Shown: in pieces, positions 19,885 through 64,000 of the stretch
How the letters are laid out: every line of letters begins with the position of its first letter
Numbering within the stretch: position 1 is the first letter of the stretch
Assembly: GCA_040218145.1 (NCBI GenBank)
Contig: JAVJQK010000050.1
Span: 248,001 to 312,000, forward strand
From: Sandaracinaceae bacterium
GTDB lineage: Bacteria > Myxococcota_A > Polyangia > Polyangiales > Sandaracinaceae
Direction: 5' to 3'
DNA length: 64,000 nt
Made by a program: the position numbers and the translations under genes
Notes under the pieces: model-generated
The model's input: only the letters and a program-made list of their open reading frames with translations
Database searches by the model: none
What the model was told of the DNA's origin: nothing

Positions 19885-21218
19885 GACTTCCCCTTCGCGG
19901 GCGCGAGCTTCTTCTGGACGCCGTCGCTCGTCGGCTCGGGCTGGGGCGCGCTCTTCGCGTCCTCGAGCTCGTAGAGGAGCCGCGCGTGCCGGAGCAGCGC
20001 CTCGCCCTCCGGGGTGTCCGCGTGGGACTTCAGCTCGCTGATGGTGCGGTGGAGCAGCTTGTTCGTCATCGCGTCGATCATCTTGTCCAGCGAGCGCCTC
20101 TCGCGCTCCGTGACGCCGCTCAGGCGCGGCAGGGTTCGTTCGAGCTCGGCCTCGAGGGTGCCACGCACCTTCTGCCGAAGCGCGACGATGGTGGGCTTCA
20201 GCACGCCCGAGCGCCGCCACCGCTCGAAGGCGGCGACCTCCATCGTCACGATCCGCTCCGCGGCGTCGGCCTCACGCCGGCGCGCGTTCAGGTTCTCCTG
20301 CGCGACCTGCTCGAGGTCGTCGACGTCGTAGAGGAAGACGTTGTCCATCTCGCCGACGCGAGGATCGACGTCGCGCGGGACCGCGATGTCGATCAGGAAC
20401 AGCGGGCGGTGGCGCCGCGCCTTGATCACCGGCTTCATCAGCTCGGGGGTGATCACGAAGCGCGTGCTCGAGGTGGAGGCGATCGCGACGTCGGCTTGCG
20501 CCAGCTCCGTCGAGAGCGCCTCGAGACCCCGCGCGTGCCCGTCGAGCTCGCGCGCGAGCGCCTCCGCCTTCTCGGGGCTGCGGTTGACGATGAAGAGGGA
20601 CGCGCCCGCCTTGCGGAGATGCTTGCCGGCCGCCTCGCCCATCTCGCCCGCCCCGACGAGCAGCACGCGCCGCCCCTCGAGGGTGCCGAAGATCTTCTTC
20701 GCGAGGTCGCCCGCGATCGAGCTGACGCTCACCGAGCCCTCGGCGATGGTCGTCTCGTTGCGCACCTTCTTCGCCACCGCGAAGGCGTGCGAGAAGCAGC
20801 GGTCGAGGAGCGTGCCGAGGCTGCCCGTGGTCTTCGAGGCCGAGTACGCCTCCTTGACCTGTCCGAGGATCTGCGGCTCGCCCACCACCATCGAGTCGAG
20901 GCTCGACGCGACCCGGAACACGTGCCGCACCGCCTCCTCGCCGTGGTGCACGTAGAGGTAGTCGCTCACCCGCTCGCCCGCGCGCTGCTCGAGCCACTGC
21001 GTCACCGCGCTCGCCGTGCGCTCGCGGTCCTCGCCGCCGACGTACACCTCGACCCGGTTGCACGTGCTCAGGAGCAGCACTTCGGGCAGCAGCGCCGCGT
21101 CGTGGATCTCGCGCACGCTCGCCTCGAGGGCCGGGCCGTCGACCGCGAGCCGCTCGCGCAACGCCACCGGAGAGGTCCGGTGGCTCATCCCCACGACCAG
21201 GAGATCGTTCGAGGACAT
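19881..21218 (-). CDS. hemA: Glutamyl-tRNA reductase
   Basis: 445 aa. NADPH-dependent reduction of glutamyl-tRNA to glutamate-1-semialdehyde, the committing step of the C5 heme pathway. Landmarks: VGMSHRTSPVALRE, the nucleophile Cys in LLSTCNRVEVY (about residue 53), GEPQILGQVKEAY, the Rossmann loop VLLVGAGEMGE, and DIAVPRDVDP. The C-terminal dimerisation helices end in a Lys/Pro-rich tail slightly longer than usual. The ATG at 21218 shares its G-side base with the stop of the HemX-like gene (TGATG). The C5 route is therefore used; hemL is not in the window. Confidence 0.98.
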   Translation of the reverse strand: MSSNDLLVVGMSHRTSPVALRERLAVDGPALEASVREIHDAALLPEVLLLSTCNRVEVYVGGEDRERTASAVTQWLEQRAGERVSDYLYVHHGEEAVRHVFRVASSLDSMVVGEPQILGQVKEAYSASKTTGSLGTLLDRCFSHAFAVAKKVRNETTIAEGSVSVSSIAGDLAKKIFGTLEGRRVLLVGAGEMGEAAGKHLRKAGASLFIVNRSPEKAEALARELDGHARGLEALSTELAQADVAIASTSSTRFVITPELMKPVIKARRHRPLFLIDIAVPRDVDPRVGEMDNVFLYDVDDLEQVAQENLNARRREADAAERIVTMEVAAFERWRRSGVLKPTIVALRQKVRGTLEAELERTLPRLSGVTERERRSLDKMIDAMTNKLLHRTISELKSHADTPEGEALLRHARLLYELEDAKSAPQPEPTSDGVQKKLAPAKGKS

Positions 21219-22030
21219 CAGCCGAAGCCCTCCGAGCCCCTGAGCATGTATCCGACCAGCACGACCATCGTCGAGAGGAAGCCGAGCATGGTGCCGATCG
21301 CCGCCTTGCGGCCGCGCCAGCCCGCCGCGACGCGGAGCAAGAGCACCCCCGCGAACAGCAGCCAGGAGAGCAACCCGAAGCCCTGCGCGGCGGAGAGCCC
21401 GAAGCCCCCTTGATGGAGCTGGACCGCCCAGATCGTCCCGGTGACGACGCCGACGGTCAGCAGCGGGAAGCCGACGAGCACCGAGCGGAGGCCGAAGGTG
21501 TCGAGCACGTCGAGCGCGGGCAGCCGCTGCATGAGCCCGCCGAGGCGCTTCTGCCGGAGCTGTCGCTCCTGGAGGAGGTAGGCGACGGCGGCCGCGGCGG
21601 CGAGCGCGAAGGCGGCGAGCCCGAGCACGTTGACGCCCACGTGGACCGGGAGGAGCGCCGACTTGACGCCCTCGGGCACGGGCCCGACCCCGCGGCGGAA
21701 CGCGGCCCCGAGGAAGAGCAGCAGGGTGACCGGCGTGATGAACGCGCCGAGCACGTGCAGCCGATCTCGTTTGCGCGCCGTGACCAGGAAGACGAGCACC
21801 AGCACGAGCGACATCACGGCCAGCGCCTGGTGGATGTCGGCCGTGGGCACGGTGCCGAGCACGGCCCAGTTCGACACGAGGAAGGCGAGGTGAGACGCCA
21901 CGGCGCCGCCGAGCACACGCGCCGCCCAGGTCGCGCCCCCCTCCGTGCCGCGCGAAAGGAAGAGCACGTAGAGGCCGGCGGCGATCGCGTAGAGCGCGGC
22001 GGTCAGGCCGAAGAGGAGGGTCACCCACAT
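21218..22030 (-). CDS. HemX/CcsA-type cytochrome c assembly-like membrane protein
   Basis: 270-aa inner-membrane protein with about eight hydrophobic segments. The run YLLQERQLRQKRLGG and LDVLDTFGLRSVLVGFPLLTVGVVTG is typical of the CcsA/ResC/HemX superfamily; the heme-binding WWD motif of true CcsA is not seen, favouring a HemX-like role next to hemA. ATG at 22030 is preferred (GGGAG upstream) over GTG at 22045. The gene start lies inside the tail of the small ORF at 22021-22182. HemX homologues influence glutamyl-tRNA reductase level or placement in other bacteria; that role here is inferred from position. Confidence 0.85.
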   Translation of the reverse strand: MWVTLLFGLTAALYAIAAGLYVLFLSRGTEGGATWAARVLGGAVASHLAFLVSNWAVLGTVPTADIHQALAVMSLVLVLVFLVTARKRDRLHVLGAFITPVTLLLFLGAAFRRGVGPVPEGVKSALLPVHVGVNVLGLAAFALAAAAAVAYLLQERQLRQKRLGGLMQRLPALDVLDTFGLRSVLVGFPLLTVGVVTGTIWAVQLHQGGFGLSAAQGFGLLSWLLFAGVLLLRVAAGWRGRKAAIGTMLGFLSTMVVLVGYMLRGSEGFG

Positions 22031-22182
22031 GGCGTCGTCTCCCACGCCTCAATGTCCTCCGCGGAAGTCCCGAGCCCGTGGGTCGGCCCCTCCTCGGAAT
22101 ACGCGGAGTATGCCTCGCCGTCGCGCCTCGATTCGCACGCCGATGTCTCGTCCCACAGGCTCACGAGTTCCGCTACGGCCAT
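22021..22182 (-). CDS. Putative small ORF, copy 1 of a duplicated 135-bp element
   Basis: 53-codon frame beginning MAVAELVSLWDETSACESRR. Its ATG (22182-22180) overlaps the TAA stop of the upstream gene as TAATG, and its own stop lies just inside the HemX-like gene. Codons 1-31 match the small ORF at 62621 with 9 mismatches in 93 bases, then 7 unrelated codons (8 in the other copy), then a second shared block (ACTTCCGCG, GAGGACAT). Frame is kept between copies despite the length difference. Codon use is less GC-rich at third positions than the neighbours (GTA, ACA, GAA kept in both copies), so RNA-level function or recent duplication is possible. I know no family for the peptide. No Shine-Dalgarno is obvious; translation would depend on coupling. 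Confidence 0.4.
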   Translation of the reverse strand: MAVAELVSLWDETSACESRRDGEAYSAYSEEGPTHGLGTSAEDIEAWETTPCG

Positions 22183-22598
22183 TAGCGGCTCTGTAGGAAC
22201 CGGGCCAGGAGATCGATCTCCCCGGAGCCCGCCCGCTCTCCGGTGAGCGCGCGCGCGGCGGCGGACATGCTGTCTCCGATCACCGCGTCGTCGTCTTCGA
22301 CCACCGGCGTGCCCGCGAAGCCCTCGACGACCTGATAGGCGTTGTCTCCGAGGATCACGGAGTCGGCATAGTGCTCGGCGCCGATCTCCGCCAACTGCTC
22401 CAGATCCTTCACCTTCCCCAGGATGTCGTGGGCATCGGGGGAGCCGGTGACCTCCTCCTTGAAGAGGACCGCCGTGGTCAGCTCGAGCCGCTGCCCCTCG
22501 GGGCGCGTGATCATCACTTCGCCTTCGACCTCCACCCGCTCCTCCGAGAGCCAGAGGTCGAGCATCGCTTGCGGGACGAAGAGGCGGTTGGCGCGCAC
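22182..22598 (-). CDS. Conserved-looking protein of unknown function, head of heme operon
   Basis: 138 aa from a GTG start with AGGA about eight bases upstream. No signal peptide or membrane segment. The N-terminal part (RLFVPQAMLDLWLSEERVEVEG, EVMITRPEGQRLEL) is sheet-like, followed by KVKDLEQLAEIGAEHYADSVILGDNAYQVVEGF and a polar C-terminal helix. I do not recognise a family. Same strand and touching the small ORF and HemX-like gene, so probably co-expressed with hemA and hemC. It is divergent from trxA, with 132 bp between that carry the trxA promoter. Confidence 0.7.
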   Translation of the reverse strand: MRANRLFVPQAMLDLWLSEERVEVEGEVMITRPEGQRLELTTAVLFKEEVTGSPDAHDILGKVKDLEQLAEIGAEHYADSVILGDNAYQVVEGFAGTPVVEDDDAVIGDSMSAAARALTGERAGSGEIDLLARFLQSR

Positions 22599-61249: not shown

Positions 61250-62620
61250 ATGGCGACGGAGAACCAGGAAGAGCTGCTCGCCATGGGCGAGCGCGTGGTC
61301 GAGCGAGCGCGCAAGGCCGGGGCAGACGTCGCGGAGGCGGTCGTCTCGGAGGGCTCGCATCTCTCGACCAAGGTCCGGCTCGGCGAGCCCGAGCTGGTCG
61401 AGGAGGCGGGGAGCCGCGCGGTCGGTCTGCGGGTCATGGTCGGCAAGCAGGTCGCGGTCTCCTACACGAGCGACCTGACAGAGGCGGGCGTGGCGCGCTT
61501 CGTCGAGGACGCGATCGAGCTCGCCCGGCTCTCGCAGCCCGACGAGCTGTCGGGCCCGCCGGATCCTTCGCAGCTGAGCAAGCGCGAGGAGCACGCCGAG
61601 CTGAACCTCTACGACGCGTCCATCCACGACATCGACGGCGCCGAGGCCCTCGCGCACGCGCTCGCTGGAGAGAAGGCGGCGCGCGACGCCGACGCACGCA
61701 TCACCAACAGCGAAGGCGCGACCTTCTCTCGCGCCTCGGGCGCGCGCGCCCTGGTGACGAGCGGCGGCTTCGGCGGCGTCAGCCGGGGCACGTACGCCTC
61801 GCTCACCGTCAACCCGGTCGCCGACGACGCCGACGGCAAGAAGCGGAGCGGCTACTACTGGACGGCGCGGCGTCACAAGGCGGGCCTGCTCGCCGCCGAC
61901 GAGGTCGGGCGCGAGGCGGCGCGACGCACGCTGGCCAAGCTCGGCGCGCAGAAGGCGGCCACCCAGGAGTGCCCGGTGATCTTCGACCCCGACGTGGGTC
62001 GCTCCATCCTCGGGCTGCTGGCCGGCTGCATCAACGGCGGCGCGATCTGGCGTCGCTCGAGCTACCTCGTCGACCGGGTCGACACGCAGGTCGCGAGCGA
62101 GCTGGTGAACGTCGTGGACGACCCCCTGCTCGAGGGCGCGCCCGGCTCGCGCCCCTACGACGGGGAGGGGCTACTCTCGCGTCGCAACACCATCGTCGAG
62201 AACGGCGTGCTCAAGAGCTACCTGCTCGACACCTACTCCGCGCGAAAGCTCGGCCTCGAGAGCACCGCGAACGCGAGCCGCGGCTCGAGCGGCGGCGTCG
62301 GCCCCTCCACCACGAACTTCATCCTCCAGCCCGGAACGCAGAGCCCAGAGGACGTGCTGAAGTCGACGAAGAGCGGCCTCTACGTCACCGAGATGATGGG
62401 CTTCGGCTTCAACGCGGTGACCGGCGATTTCAGCCGCGGCGCGTCGGGCTTCTGGATCGAGAACGGCGAGAAGACGTTCCCCGTCTCCGAGGTCACGATC
62501 TCGCTGAACGTGGACGAGCTGCTCAAGCGCATCGACGCGGTGGCCGACGACCTGGATCTCCGCACCTCGGTCGCGACGCCGACCTTCCGCGTCTCTCGCA
62601 TGACGCTCGCCGGCAAGTAG
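61250..62620 (+). CDS. tldE: Metalloprotease subunit TldE (PmbA)
   Basis: 456 aa, 6 bp after tldD; the tldD stop itself forms part of the ribosome site (TGAGGAGCG). Homologous to TldD but, as usual, without the HExxxH motif. Landmarks: the central SGYYWTARRHKAGLL, SYLVDRVDTQVASELVNVVDD and the C-terminal FGFNAVTGDFSRGASGFWIENGE. Partners TldD. The stop TAG is followed at once by the ATG of the small duplicated ORF. Confidence 0.96.
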   Translation: MATENQEELLAMGERVVERARKAGADVAEAVVSEGSHLSTKVRLGEPELVEEAGSRAVGLRVMVGKQVAVSYTSDLTEAGVARFVEDAIELARLSQPDELSGPPDPSQLSKREEHAELNLYDASIHDIDGAEALAHALAGEKAARDADARITNSEGATFSRASGARALVTSGGFGGVSRGTYASLTVNPVADDADGKKRSGYYWTARRHKAGLLAADEVGREAARRTLAKLGAQKAATQECPVIFDPDVGRSILGLLAGCINGGAIWRRSSYLVDRVDTQVASELVNVVDDPLLEGAPGSRPYDGEGLLSRRNTIVENGVLKSYLLDTYSARKLGLESTANASRGSSGGVGPSTTNFILQPGTQSPEDVLKSTKSGLYVTEMMGFGFNAVTGDFSRGASGFWIENGEKTFPVSEVTISLNVDELLKRIDAVADDLDLRTSVATPTFRVSRMTLAGK

Positions 62621-62758
62621 ATGGCCGTAGCGGAGGTCGCGAGCCTGTGGGGCGAGACATCGGCGTGCGAATCGAGGCGCGACGACGAGGAATACTCTAC
62701 GTATTCCCAGGAGGAGCAACGCAGAGTCGCGCGCCCGACTTCCGCGAAGGACATCTAG
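62621..62758 (+). CDS. Putative small ORF, copy 2 of a duplicated 135-bp element
   Basis: 45-codon frame, MAVAEVASLWGETSACESRR at the start, ATG directly after the tldE stop (TAG-ATG), ending in TAG two bases before the next gene's GTG. Matches the small ORF at 22021-22182 on the other strand: 9 mismatches in the first 93 bases, a spacer one codon longer, then a second shared block. Position relative to neighbouring genes is the same in both copies: right after a stop and right before a start. It may be a peptide, or a transcribed regulatory element that happens to be open. Confidence 0.4.
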   Translation: MAVAEVASLWGETSACESRRDDEEYSTYSQEEQRRVARPTSAKDI

Positions 62759-62759
62759 C

Positions 62760-64000
62760 GTGAGCGAGGCGCCCGACAAGCGCCTCCTGCGGCTCTTGCC
62801 CGTGGAGCGCTGGCCGAGCTCGGACGAGGCGGCAGCCATGCGCTGGTTCTCCCCCGTTCGGGTCGGCCCCCTGACCCTGACCGCGCGCACCTGGGTGCCG
62901 GCGATGGTGCCCTGGCGCGCCACCGACGAGGGCTTCGTCACCGACGCGGTGCTCGCGTGGTATCGGCGCTTCGCCGAGGGCCAGCCGGGCGCGATCGTCA
63001 TCGAGGCGACCGGGATCCGCGATGTGCCGAGCGGGCCGCTCCTGCGCATCGGCCACGATCGGTTCCTGCCCGGCCTGCGCCAGCTCGTCGAGACCGTGCG
63101 CGAGGCGAGCGACGGCCAGACACGGCTCCTGATCCAGCTCATCGACTTCCTCGCGATCAAGCGTCGCGTCTCGGCCGAGAAGTTCCTCCGCCGCTTCCTC
63201 GTCGTCGACGATCGCCTGCGCGAGCGCCTGGACCTCGACGACGAAGACGCCATCCGGGCCCGCCTCCTCGAGATGGACGACGACGCGCTCGCCGACGTGC
63301 TCGACCCCCGCGACCTCGAGAGCCTGCGCATGGGCTACCGCGAGCGCGTGACCGACGTGCACCTGCCGCACGTGCGCGAGCTGCCCGAGGTCCTGCCCGG
63401 GCTCTTCGCGCGCGCGGCGGCCCGCGCCGAGGAGGCGGGCTTCGACGGCGTGGAGCTCCACTACGCGCACGCGTACACGATGGCGTCGTTCCTCAGCGCC
63501 CGGAACACGCGGCAGGACGGCTACGGCGGCGCGCGCGAGGACCGCGTCCGTCTCCCGCTCGAGGTCTACCGCGAGGTGCGCGCCGCGGTCTCGCGCGACA
63601 CCGCGGTCGGCGCGCGCTTCCTCGGCGACGAGGTGATCGAGGGGGGCAACCGCGCCGACGACGCCGCCTGGTTCGGGGTGCGCTTCGCCGAGGCGGGCAT
63701 GGACTTCCTCAGCGTGAGCAAGGGCGGGAAGTTCGAGGACGCCAGGCAGCCCAAGGTCGGCCACGCCGCCTATCCCTACACCGGCCCGAGCGGCCACGAG
63801 TGCATGCCGCACGTGAAGATCGACGCCGCCGGCCCATTCGGTCGCAACATCCCGCTCAGCGCCGCCGTGCGCGCCGCCGTGCGTGAGGCCGGCTTCGAGA
63901 CGCCGGTGGTCGGGGCCGGAGGGATCTGCTCGCCCTGGCAGGTGGAGGACATCCTCGCGCGGGGCGAGGCGGACATCGTCGCCGCCGCGCGCCAGAGCCT
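62760..64000 (+). CDS. Old Yellow Enzyme family NADH:flavin oxidoreductase, 3' end outside window
   Basis: GTG 62760 has GAAGGA eight bases upstream; 413 codons are visible and the frame is open at the window edge. FMN-binding TIM-barrel features: WVPAMVPWRATDEGF near the N terminus, GAIVIEATGI, GFDGVELHYAHAYTMASFLSARNTRQDGYGG (His/Asn/Tyr substrate site of the family), and GAGGICSPWQVEDILARGEAD toward the C terminus. Reduces activated alkenes, enones or related substrates with NAD(P)H. About one codon separates it from the small ORF upstream. Confidence 0.92.
   Translation, partial: MSEAPDKRLLRLLPVERWPSSDEAAAMRWFSPVRVGPLTLTARTWVPAMVPWRATDEGFVTDAVLAWYRRFAEGQPGAIVIEATGIRDVPSGPLLRIGHDRFLPGLRQLVETVREASDGQTRLLIQLIDFLAIKRRVSAEKFLRRFLVVDDRLRERLDLDDEDAIRARLLEMDDDALADVLDPRDLESLRMGYRERVTDVHLPHVRELPEVLPGLFARAAARAEEAGFDGVELHYAHAYTMASFLSARNTRQDGYGGAREDRVRLPLEVYREVRAAVSRDTAVGARFLGDEVIEGGNRADDAAWFGVRFAEAGMDFLSVSKGGKFEDARQPKVGHAAYPYTGPSGHECMPHVKIDAAGPFGRNIPLSAAVRAAVREAGFETPVVGAGGICSPWQVEDILARGEADIVAAARQS

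Follow-up and report, generated by a model that had tools for sequence, protein, structure and literature searches.

Results

Two related hairpin elements in the window

The window analysed here, a 64,000-nucleotide stretch of the genome of a Sandaracinaceae bacterium (G000), contains two copies of a short sequence, each of which lies between the stop codon of one gene and the start of the next. Their features are given below; the core hairpins were scored with R1, a covariance model of the 108-nt core.

61250..62620, plus strand: PmbA/TldD-like metallopeptidase gene, upstream of copy 1 (Pfam PF19289, PF19290, PF01523)
62618..62619: left TA target duplication of copy 1; the pmbA-like gene ends in a TAG stop made up of this TA and the G that opens the element
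62620..62755, plus strand: element copy 1, a probable decayed palindromic mobile element of 136 bp, with 21 nt of the 3′ arm deleted
62645..62750, plus strand: conserved core hairpin of copy 1 (R1, 78 bits, E 1.6e-14)
62756..62757: right TA target duplication of copy 1, in the context ATC-TA-GCG
62760..63998, running off the window, plus strand: gene of the NADH:flavin oxidoreductase family, downstream of copy 1 (Pfam PF00724)
22182..22598, minus strand: gene for a 138-aa protein, upstream of copy 2 (no Pfam match), with its TAA at the element junction
22051..22182, minus strand: element copy 2, decayed, with 24 nt of the 3′ arm deleted
22058..22158, minus strand: core hairpin of copy 2 (R1, 38.5 bits, E 7.7e-5)
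21218..22045, minus strand: gene of the cytochrome c assembly protein family, downstream of copy 2 (Pfam PF01578)

An earlier note on this DNA had singled out 62621–62755 (plus strand) and 22182–22051 (minus strand) as near-copies of each other. The pair is real: nine mismatches separate the copies over their first 93 bases and a 3′ block is common to both, a resemblance far beyond chance. The open frames reported for both (45 codons in copy 1 and 53 in copy 2, each from an ATG adjoining the stop codon of the upstream gene) were also found. The copies had further been described as carrying unrelated spacers of 21 and 24 bases. Here the length difference stands, but no spacer was replaced: alignment with L009, an intact copy at another place in the genome, shows that 21 nt are missing from one arm in copy 1 and that a different stretch of 24 nt is missing from this arm in copy 2. 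That the difference is a multiple of three, as noted earlier, is incidental and was left by these two separate deletions. In copy 1 the core is represented by GACGACGAGG and CAGGAGGAG, which flank the tandem G·A region described below, one on each side. Copy 2 has in addition lost its left terminal G (TA-ATGG) and its right TA. Both window copies are decayed, and they are probably inactive.

The whole-genome BLASTN search proposed at the outset returned 21 places for copy 1 (down to E 6.9e-4) rather than only two, with copy 2 as the third-ranked match (E 5.5e-34). Both copies are present at 99% in a genome of the same species (G224). In G004, which like G002 belongs to another genus than the host genome, the junction orthologous to copy 1 is empty, the two genes being joined with 8 bp between the aligned parts; the junction orthologous to copy 2 is without an insert in both G002 and G004. 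The genes that flank the two copies are unduplicated. A recent segmental duplication, which had been considered as a source of the pair, was rejected on the strength of these single neighbouring genes and empty orthologous junctions.

A dispersed family with a common core and unrelated outer stems

Searching this genome with R1 yielded 80 matches at E ≤ 0.01, each of at least 31.8 bits, compared with a background that did not exceed 19.8 bits in 70 kb of sequence from unrelated reverse transcriptase loci. Many contigs, among them C36, C37, C54, C131, C140, C122 and C143, end inside an R1 element, and the figure of 80 may therefore depart from the real number of copies. The matches belong to a dispersed family of imperfect palindromes of ∼160 bp without protein-coding capacity, the length between TA pairs being 151–164 bp in most measured copies and 136 bp in window copy 1. 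Subfamilies within the genome have unrelated outer stems, e.g. GTCACCCGGAACAGC, GTGCAGAGATCC, GCAGGGTCCGGC, GAGCACATCTCG, GGACTACTTGGTC and GATGGCCGTAGC, and have one apical core in common, which is approximately CAAGGCGCGACGACGAGGAATAC-loop-GTATTTCGAGGAGGAGCAACGC. Some subfamilies show identical R1 scores and a position at contig ends, as expected of recent, near-identical repeats that break the assembly.

Insertion at TA, mostly within CTAG, and the link to stop codons

The boundaries of the elements lie at TA, an invariance that is partly built in because TA formed part of the boundary search; the bases beyond TA are free to vary, and a C before and a G after it (CTAG) were found in 18 of the 30 measured copies. 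The element itself starts with G in 29 of these 30 copies and ends with C in 27. Terminal inverted repeats are evident in many copies, with 13–17 of 18 end bases complementary, and are imperfect in some subfamilies (8–10 of 18). A 4-bp duplication was considered for the elements of this genome, but TA fits more copies. No TA pair was found in 17 of 51 searched copies, in which one end is altered or is cut by a contig end, and TA is changed at one end in many copies, more than their overall similarity would lead one to expect. Such single-end deviations from CTAG often read CTGG or CCAG (L013, L017, L078, L091, L085 and L095), the form that a very-short-patch-type repair bias on CTAG would produce, and this bias is a candidate cause. 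Three pairs of adjoining elements (L069, L074 and L112) have a single CTAG in common, as expected if one element had inserted in the TA that flanks another.

The TAG at the junction closes a coding-like frame (at least 60 open codons, with G+C highest in third positions) in 19 of 30 copies, compared with 3 in each of the other registers, although the null for this comparison is imperfect since CTAG is rare and itself often coincides with a stop, as do 7 of the 31 CTAG sites of the sequence examined. The strand of the G·A motif shows no preference relative to the adjacent gene (nine same, ten opposite), as for a selfish insert. An element with G first and C last restores TAG on either strand when it inserts into CTAG, and the gene next to an amber stop that is hit thus stays intact. 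This also explains the ATG next to the stop in the window copies: the target TA plus the terminal G of the element makes TAG, and the ATG is the element's own sequence. The start/stop context is thus accounted for by the target site and not by translation.

The core is conserved as a mismatched hairpin

Every copy is one long imperfect palindrome. Predicted RNA folding energies of eleven copies ranged from −68 to −123 kcal/mol, and DNA folding of the two window copies was better than that of nearly all shuffled sequences (z −3.6 and −4.4; z −7.0 for L009). In an alignment of 62 copies, two rows of which are antisense matches of the same palindromes, compensatory changes were seen at 35 of 35 pairs, amounting to 652 such cells compared with 195 after shuffling. 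Pairing was retained in 92% of the cells, and the covariation score was 0.766 compared with 0.08–0.10 when the structure was slid along the alignment; the alignment was fitted to R1 and so favours the structure, but the size of this gap and the outer-stem replacements go beyond that bias.

The apical core contains repeated tandem G·A/A·G mismatches with covarying base pairs between them. At least two of the tandem G·A/A·G steps are kept in 57 of 60 copies (the 62 rows minus the two antisense matches), and in 7 of the 60 the pair between G·A steps is flipped while the step is retained. Since a palindrome kept by homogenization of its arms alone would lose such mismatches, the core is likely to have been selected in a folded, single-stranded form, as either ssDNA or RNA.

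Rfam gave no match in the window at the gathering threshold, and a search of seven loci at E ≤ 5 gave two weak miRNA matches and nothing else. Together with a literature search that covered open-access work and few subscription journals, and found no description of such a sequence, this agrees with the earlier note that no described family has it.

The core occurs across the phylum and between different ends

When at most 13 candidates per genome were scored in sampled genomes, R1 matched in at least 86 of 290 genomes of the class at E ≤ 0.01 and in at least 33 of 284 genomes of the phylum at E ≤ 1e-4. An exact core pattern searched over ∼85,000 species occurred at 22 places, all in myxobacterial MAGs or in MAGs without a placement in their title. 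Outside the phylum, the core was detected in plasmids of the Pseudomonadota Caballeronia (61 bits), Polaromonas (60 bits) and Novosphingobium (43 bits). No convincing match came from phages or from E. coli genomes, and a search of viral contigs with two exact patterns found none.

The ends that surround the core differ among these hosts. G017 and its relatives carry elements with ends of the form GGG…CCC and with a TTA or TAA duplication in 10 of 10 copies displayed. In G017, a relative with a 5.4-Mb genome, 160 terminal-repeat matches correspond to roughly 80 elements of this TTA-duplicating subfamily. Caballeronia and Polaromonas have the core inside a ∼234-bp element whose ends read CCTAGAAACGGCAGTTGA or a similar sequence. 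The Polaromonas hairpin element has an IS1380-like transposase element, which ends in CCTAGAAACGGCAGTTAG, ∼360 bp upstream, and the terminal repeat CCTAGAAACGGCAGTTGA of the hairpin element nearly matches CCTAGAAACGGCAGTTAG at the end of the IS1380-like transposase gene. This transposase passes the Pfam cut-off for PF13701 and falls below the NCBIfam cut-off for IS1380 (155.5 compared with 180 bits). Hence, one and the same core is bounded by ends that belong to several target-duplication classes (TA, TTA and IS1380-like). Judging from these sequences, it probably acquired different ends more than once in evolution.

A matching transposase was sought in the host genome. A search of G000 with the terminal-repeat pattern found only elements and remnants, and no autonomous partner. 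A search for the IS630 family found one transposase, whose right end is unlike the ends of the elements; its terminal repeat differs from all R1 subfamilies seen. This sole IS630 transposase (L128, G000:C35:1-1175) is located at a contig end, and the sequence that follows it reads …GCTCGTGTACTAG, with a CTAG end. No transposase was found beside the single-ended copies examined in G017, G035 and G118. Because no matching transposase was found in this genome, the link to IS630 would be one of behaviour and not of descent.

Discussion

A probable mobile hairpin of the MITE type

We consider it probable (at roughly 0.8) that both window copies are what is left of a hairpin-forming, non-autonomous mobile element of the MITE (miniature inverted-repeat transposable element) type, a reading that includes the proposed selection of the core as a folded single strand and the model below for the ends. 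The elements are short, non-coding, dispersed and multicopy; they have terminal inverted repeats and a target-site duplication, and their sites are empty in relatives. Their TA duplication with a preference for CTAG is the pattern of IS630/Tc1-mariner elements. With about 80 copies, covariation throughout the model and a core common across the phylum, the earlier suggestion of an RNA or DNA element under nucleotide constraint has held up well.

The palindrome of ∼160 bp inserts at TA, mostly in CTAG, leaves TA on both sides and lands harmlessly on amber stops as outlined above. According to the model, a DDE transposase would act in trans to cut the ends and join them, presumably an IS630/Tc1-mariner-like enzyme for the TA class and an IS1380-like enzyme for the class seen in Polaromonas and Caballeronia. 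The core is kept across the Myxococcota and some plasmids of Pseudomonadota while the outer stems and ends change completely. A bolder version is tentative, and we would put it at somewhat less than even odds: one tandem G·A hairpin module may have changed ends repeatedly and may ride unrelated transposases (TA-duplicating, TTA-duplicating and IS1380-like) in at least two phyla, as a structured nucleic-acid parasite whose core has a selected function, e.g. the binding of a host or transposase factor as RNA or ssDNA.

Strong covariation with conserved mismatched internal loops, and the many copies that directly follow a stop codon, could also be expected of a functional structured RNA, e.g. a 3′-end regulator or stability element that works within the upstream gene's transcript and is multicopy by chance. 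Such an RNA appears improbable, given the lack of strand preference relative to the adjacent gene, the subfamilies of near-identical recent copies, the empty orthologous sites and the lack of an Rfam family; moreover, secondary effects on transcripts are known for bacterial MITEs (PMC2229807). Mobility of the folded single strand by a REP/RAYT-like or integron-like recombinase, instead of a DDE transposase, would suit an element that folds as a single hairpin, varies little in size and keeps its mismatches, with variable ends around a constant core and no DDE partner found in this genome. We regard this as unlikely too, since the 2-bp TA and 3-bp TTA duplications are not expected of HUH enzymes or tyrosine recombinases, and the Polaromonas form has ends that match those of an IS1380-like element.

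The copies might also have arisen by retrotransposition of retron msDNA, an origin that has been proposed for repeats of Nannocystis exedens (Lampson and Rice, 1997, as cited in PMC6868368). As summarized there, those repeats come from the same broad bacterial group and share a similar length (∼160 nt) and a long hairpin with the elements described here, and in the complete relative G001 an element (L149 ∼2160–2300; G001:C1:7366660-7366800) has a retron-like hairpin region on one side and the start codon of a reverse transcriptase on the other. The host's own reverse transcriptase locus, however, has a different upstream hairpin without an R1 match above background, and terminal inverted repeats combined with a TA or TTA duplication are a hallmark of DNA transposases, which makes an origin from msDNA very improbable. 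Finally, a small protein of 45–53 aa that was duplicated and inserted downstream of genes, as the open frames of the two window copies had suggested, is scarcely credible and was rejected, because the frame is interrupted by stops in nearly all other copies (a TGA in the intact L009), its length changes are explained by separate deletions, and no Pfam match was obtained.

Relation to known elements

Returning to the MITE-type interpretation, small bacterial MITEs with terminal repeats, TA ends and long stem-loops are well documented (PMC2229807). Like ERIC/IRU/RU-1, RUP and Correia/NEMIS (PMC2229807), the present elements are shorter than 200 bp, non-coding and multicopy, with terminal inverted repeats and TA ends; transcripts of both would fold as long stem-loops, and incidental open frames, which occur in some copies of bacterial MITEs, are a further likeness (PMC2759123). 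ERIC, RUP and Correia elements are A+T-rich, whereas those described here are G+C-rich, number ∼80 copies in subfamilies with unrelated ends, share a tandem G·A core across the phylum and beyond, and are frequently inserted at stop codons. Duplication of TA and preference for CTAG are established for the IS630 family (PMC2170065; Tenzen and Ohtsubo, 1991, in its reference list), and in both respects the present elements resemble IS630/Tc1-mariner members such as ISY100 (PMC2170065) and IS630 of Shigella sonnei; unlike these, they carry no transposase gene, and the one IS630 transposase of the host has a different right end. The IS1380 family is approached by the Polaromonas hairpin element, whose terminal repeat is nearly that of the IS1380-like element ∼360 bp away, but the elements of the present genome differ from it in their ends, and are flanked on each side by TA instead of a longer duplication.

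MITEPsy1 of Pseudomonas syringae, a 100-nt MITE, also inserts at CTAG (or YTAA); in the portion of the source available to us it is described with a 4-nt duplication and ISPsy2-like ends, and no such core is mentioned there (PMC3189936). REPINs and repetitive extragenic palindromes are likewise short dispersed hairpins, but the present elements are much longer and have a target duplication. The msDNA-like repeats of N. exedens are repetitive hairpins in a myxobacterium as well; compared by their description in the passages available to us (PMC6868368), they differ in that no msr-like part is seen in the present elements, and the retron-like hairpin of the host is different.

Implications

The usual view of a bacterial MITE is that it derives by deletion from one insertion sequence. 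As a mobile element, the family described here is of an ordinary kind; what is unusual is its architecture, in which a conserved, mismatched hairpin core is combined with exchangeable ends. Its folded core appears to outlive the ends, being kept over the phylum and beyond while terminal repeats and target duplications change. If confirmed, this would make the family a tractable example of transposase switching by a non-coding parasite, and it raises the question of what purpose the tandem G·A hairpin serves. For annotation, short conserved open reading frames in such genomes that start at a stop codon should first be examined for mobile hairpins and only then be called as genes. An element that starts with G and targets CTAG also illustrates how insertion on amber stops can be harmless. 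The same target recurs at L113 (G000:C134:12500-15700), where, beside an element, there are more short hairpins bounded by CTAG (CTAGTCCCGAATCAAGCGCTTCGCGCTTG… and CTAGTCAGGGGCTTTTCGCAAAAGCCCC) that are without the R1 core and are possibly a second hairpin family with the same target.
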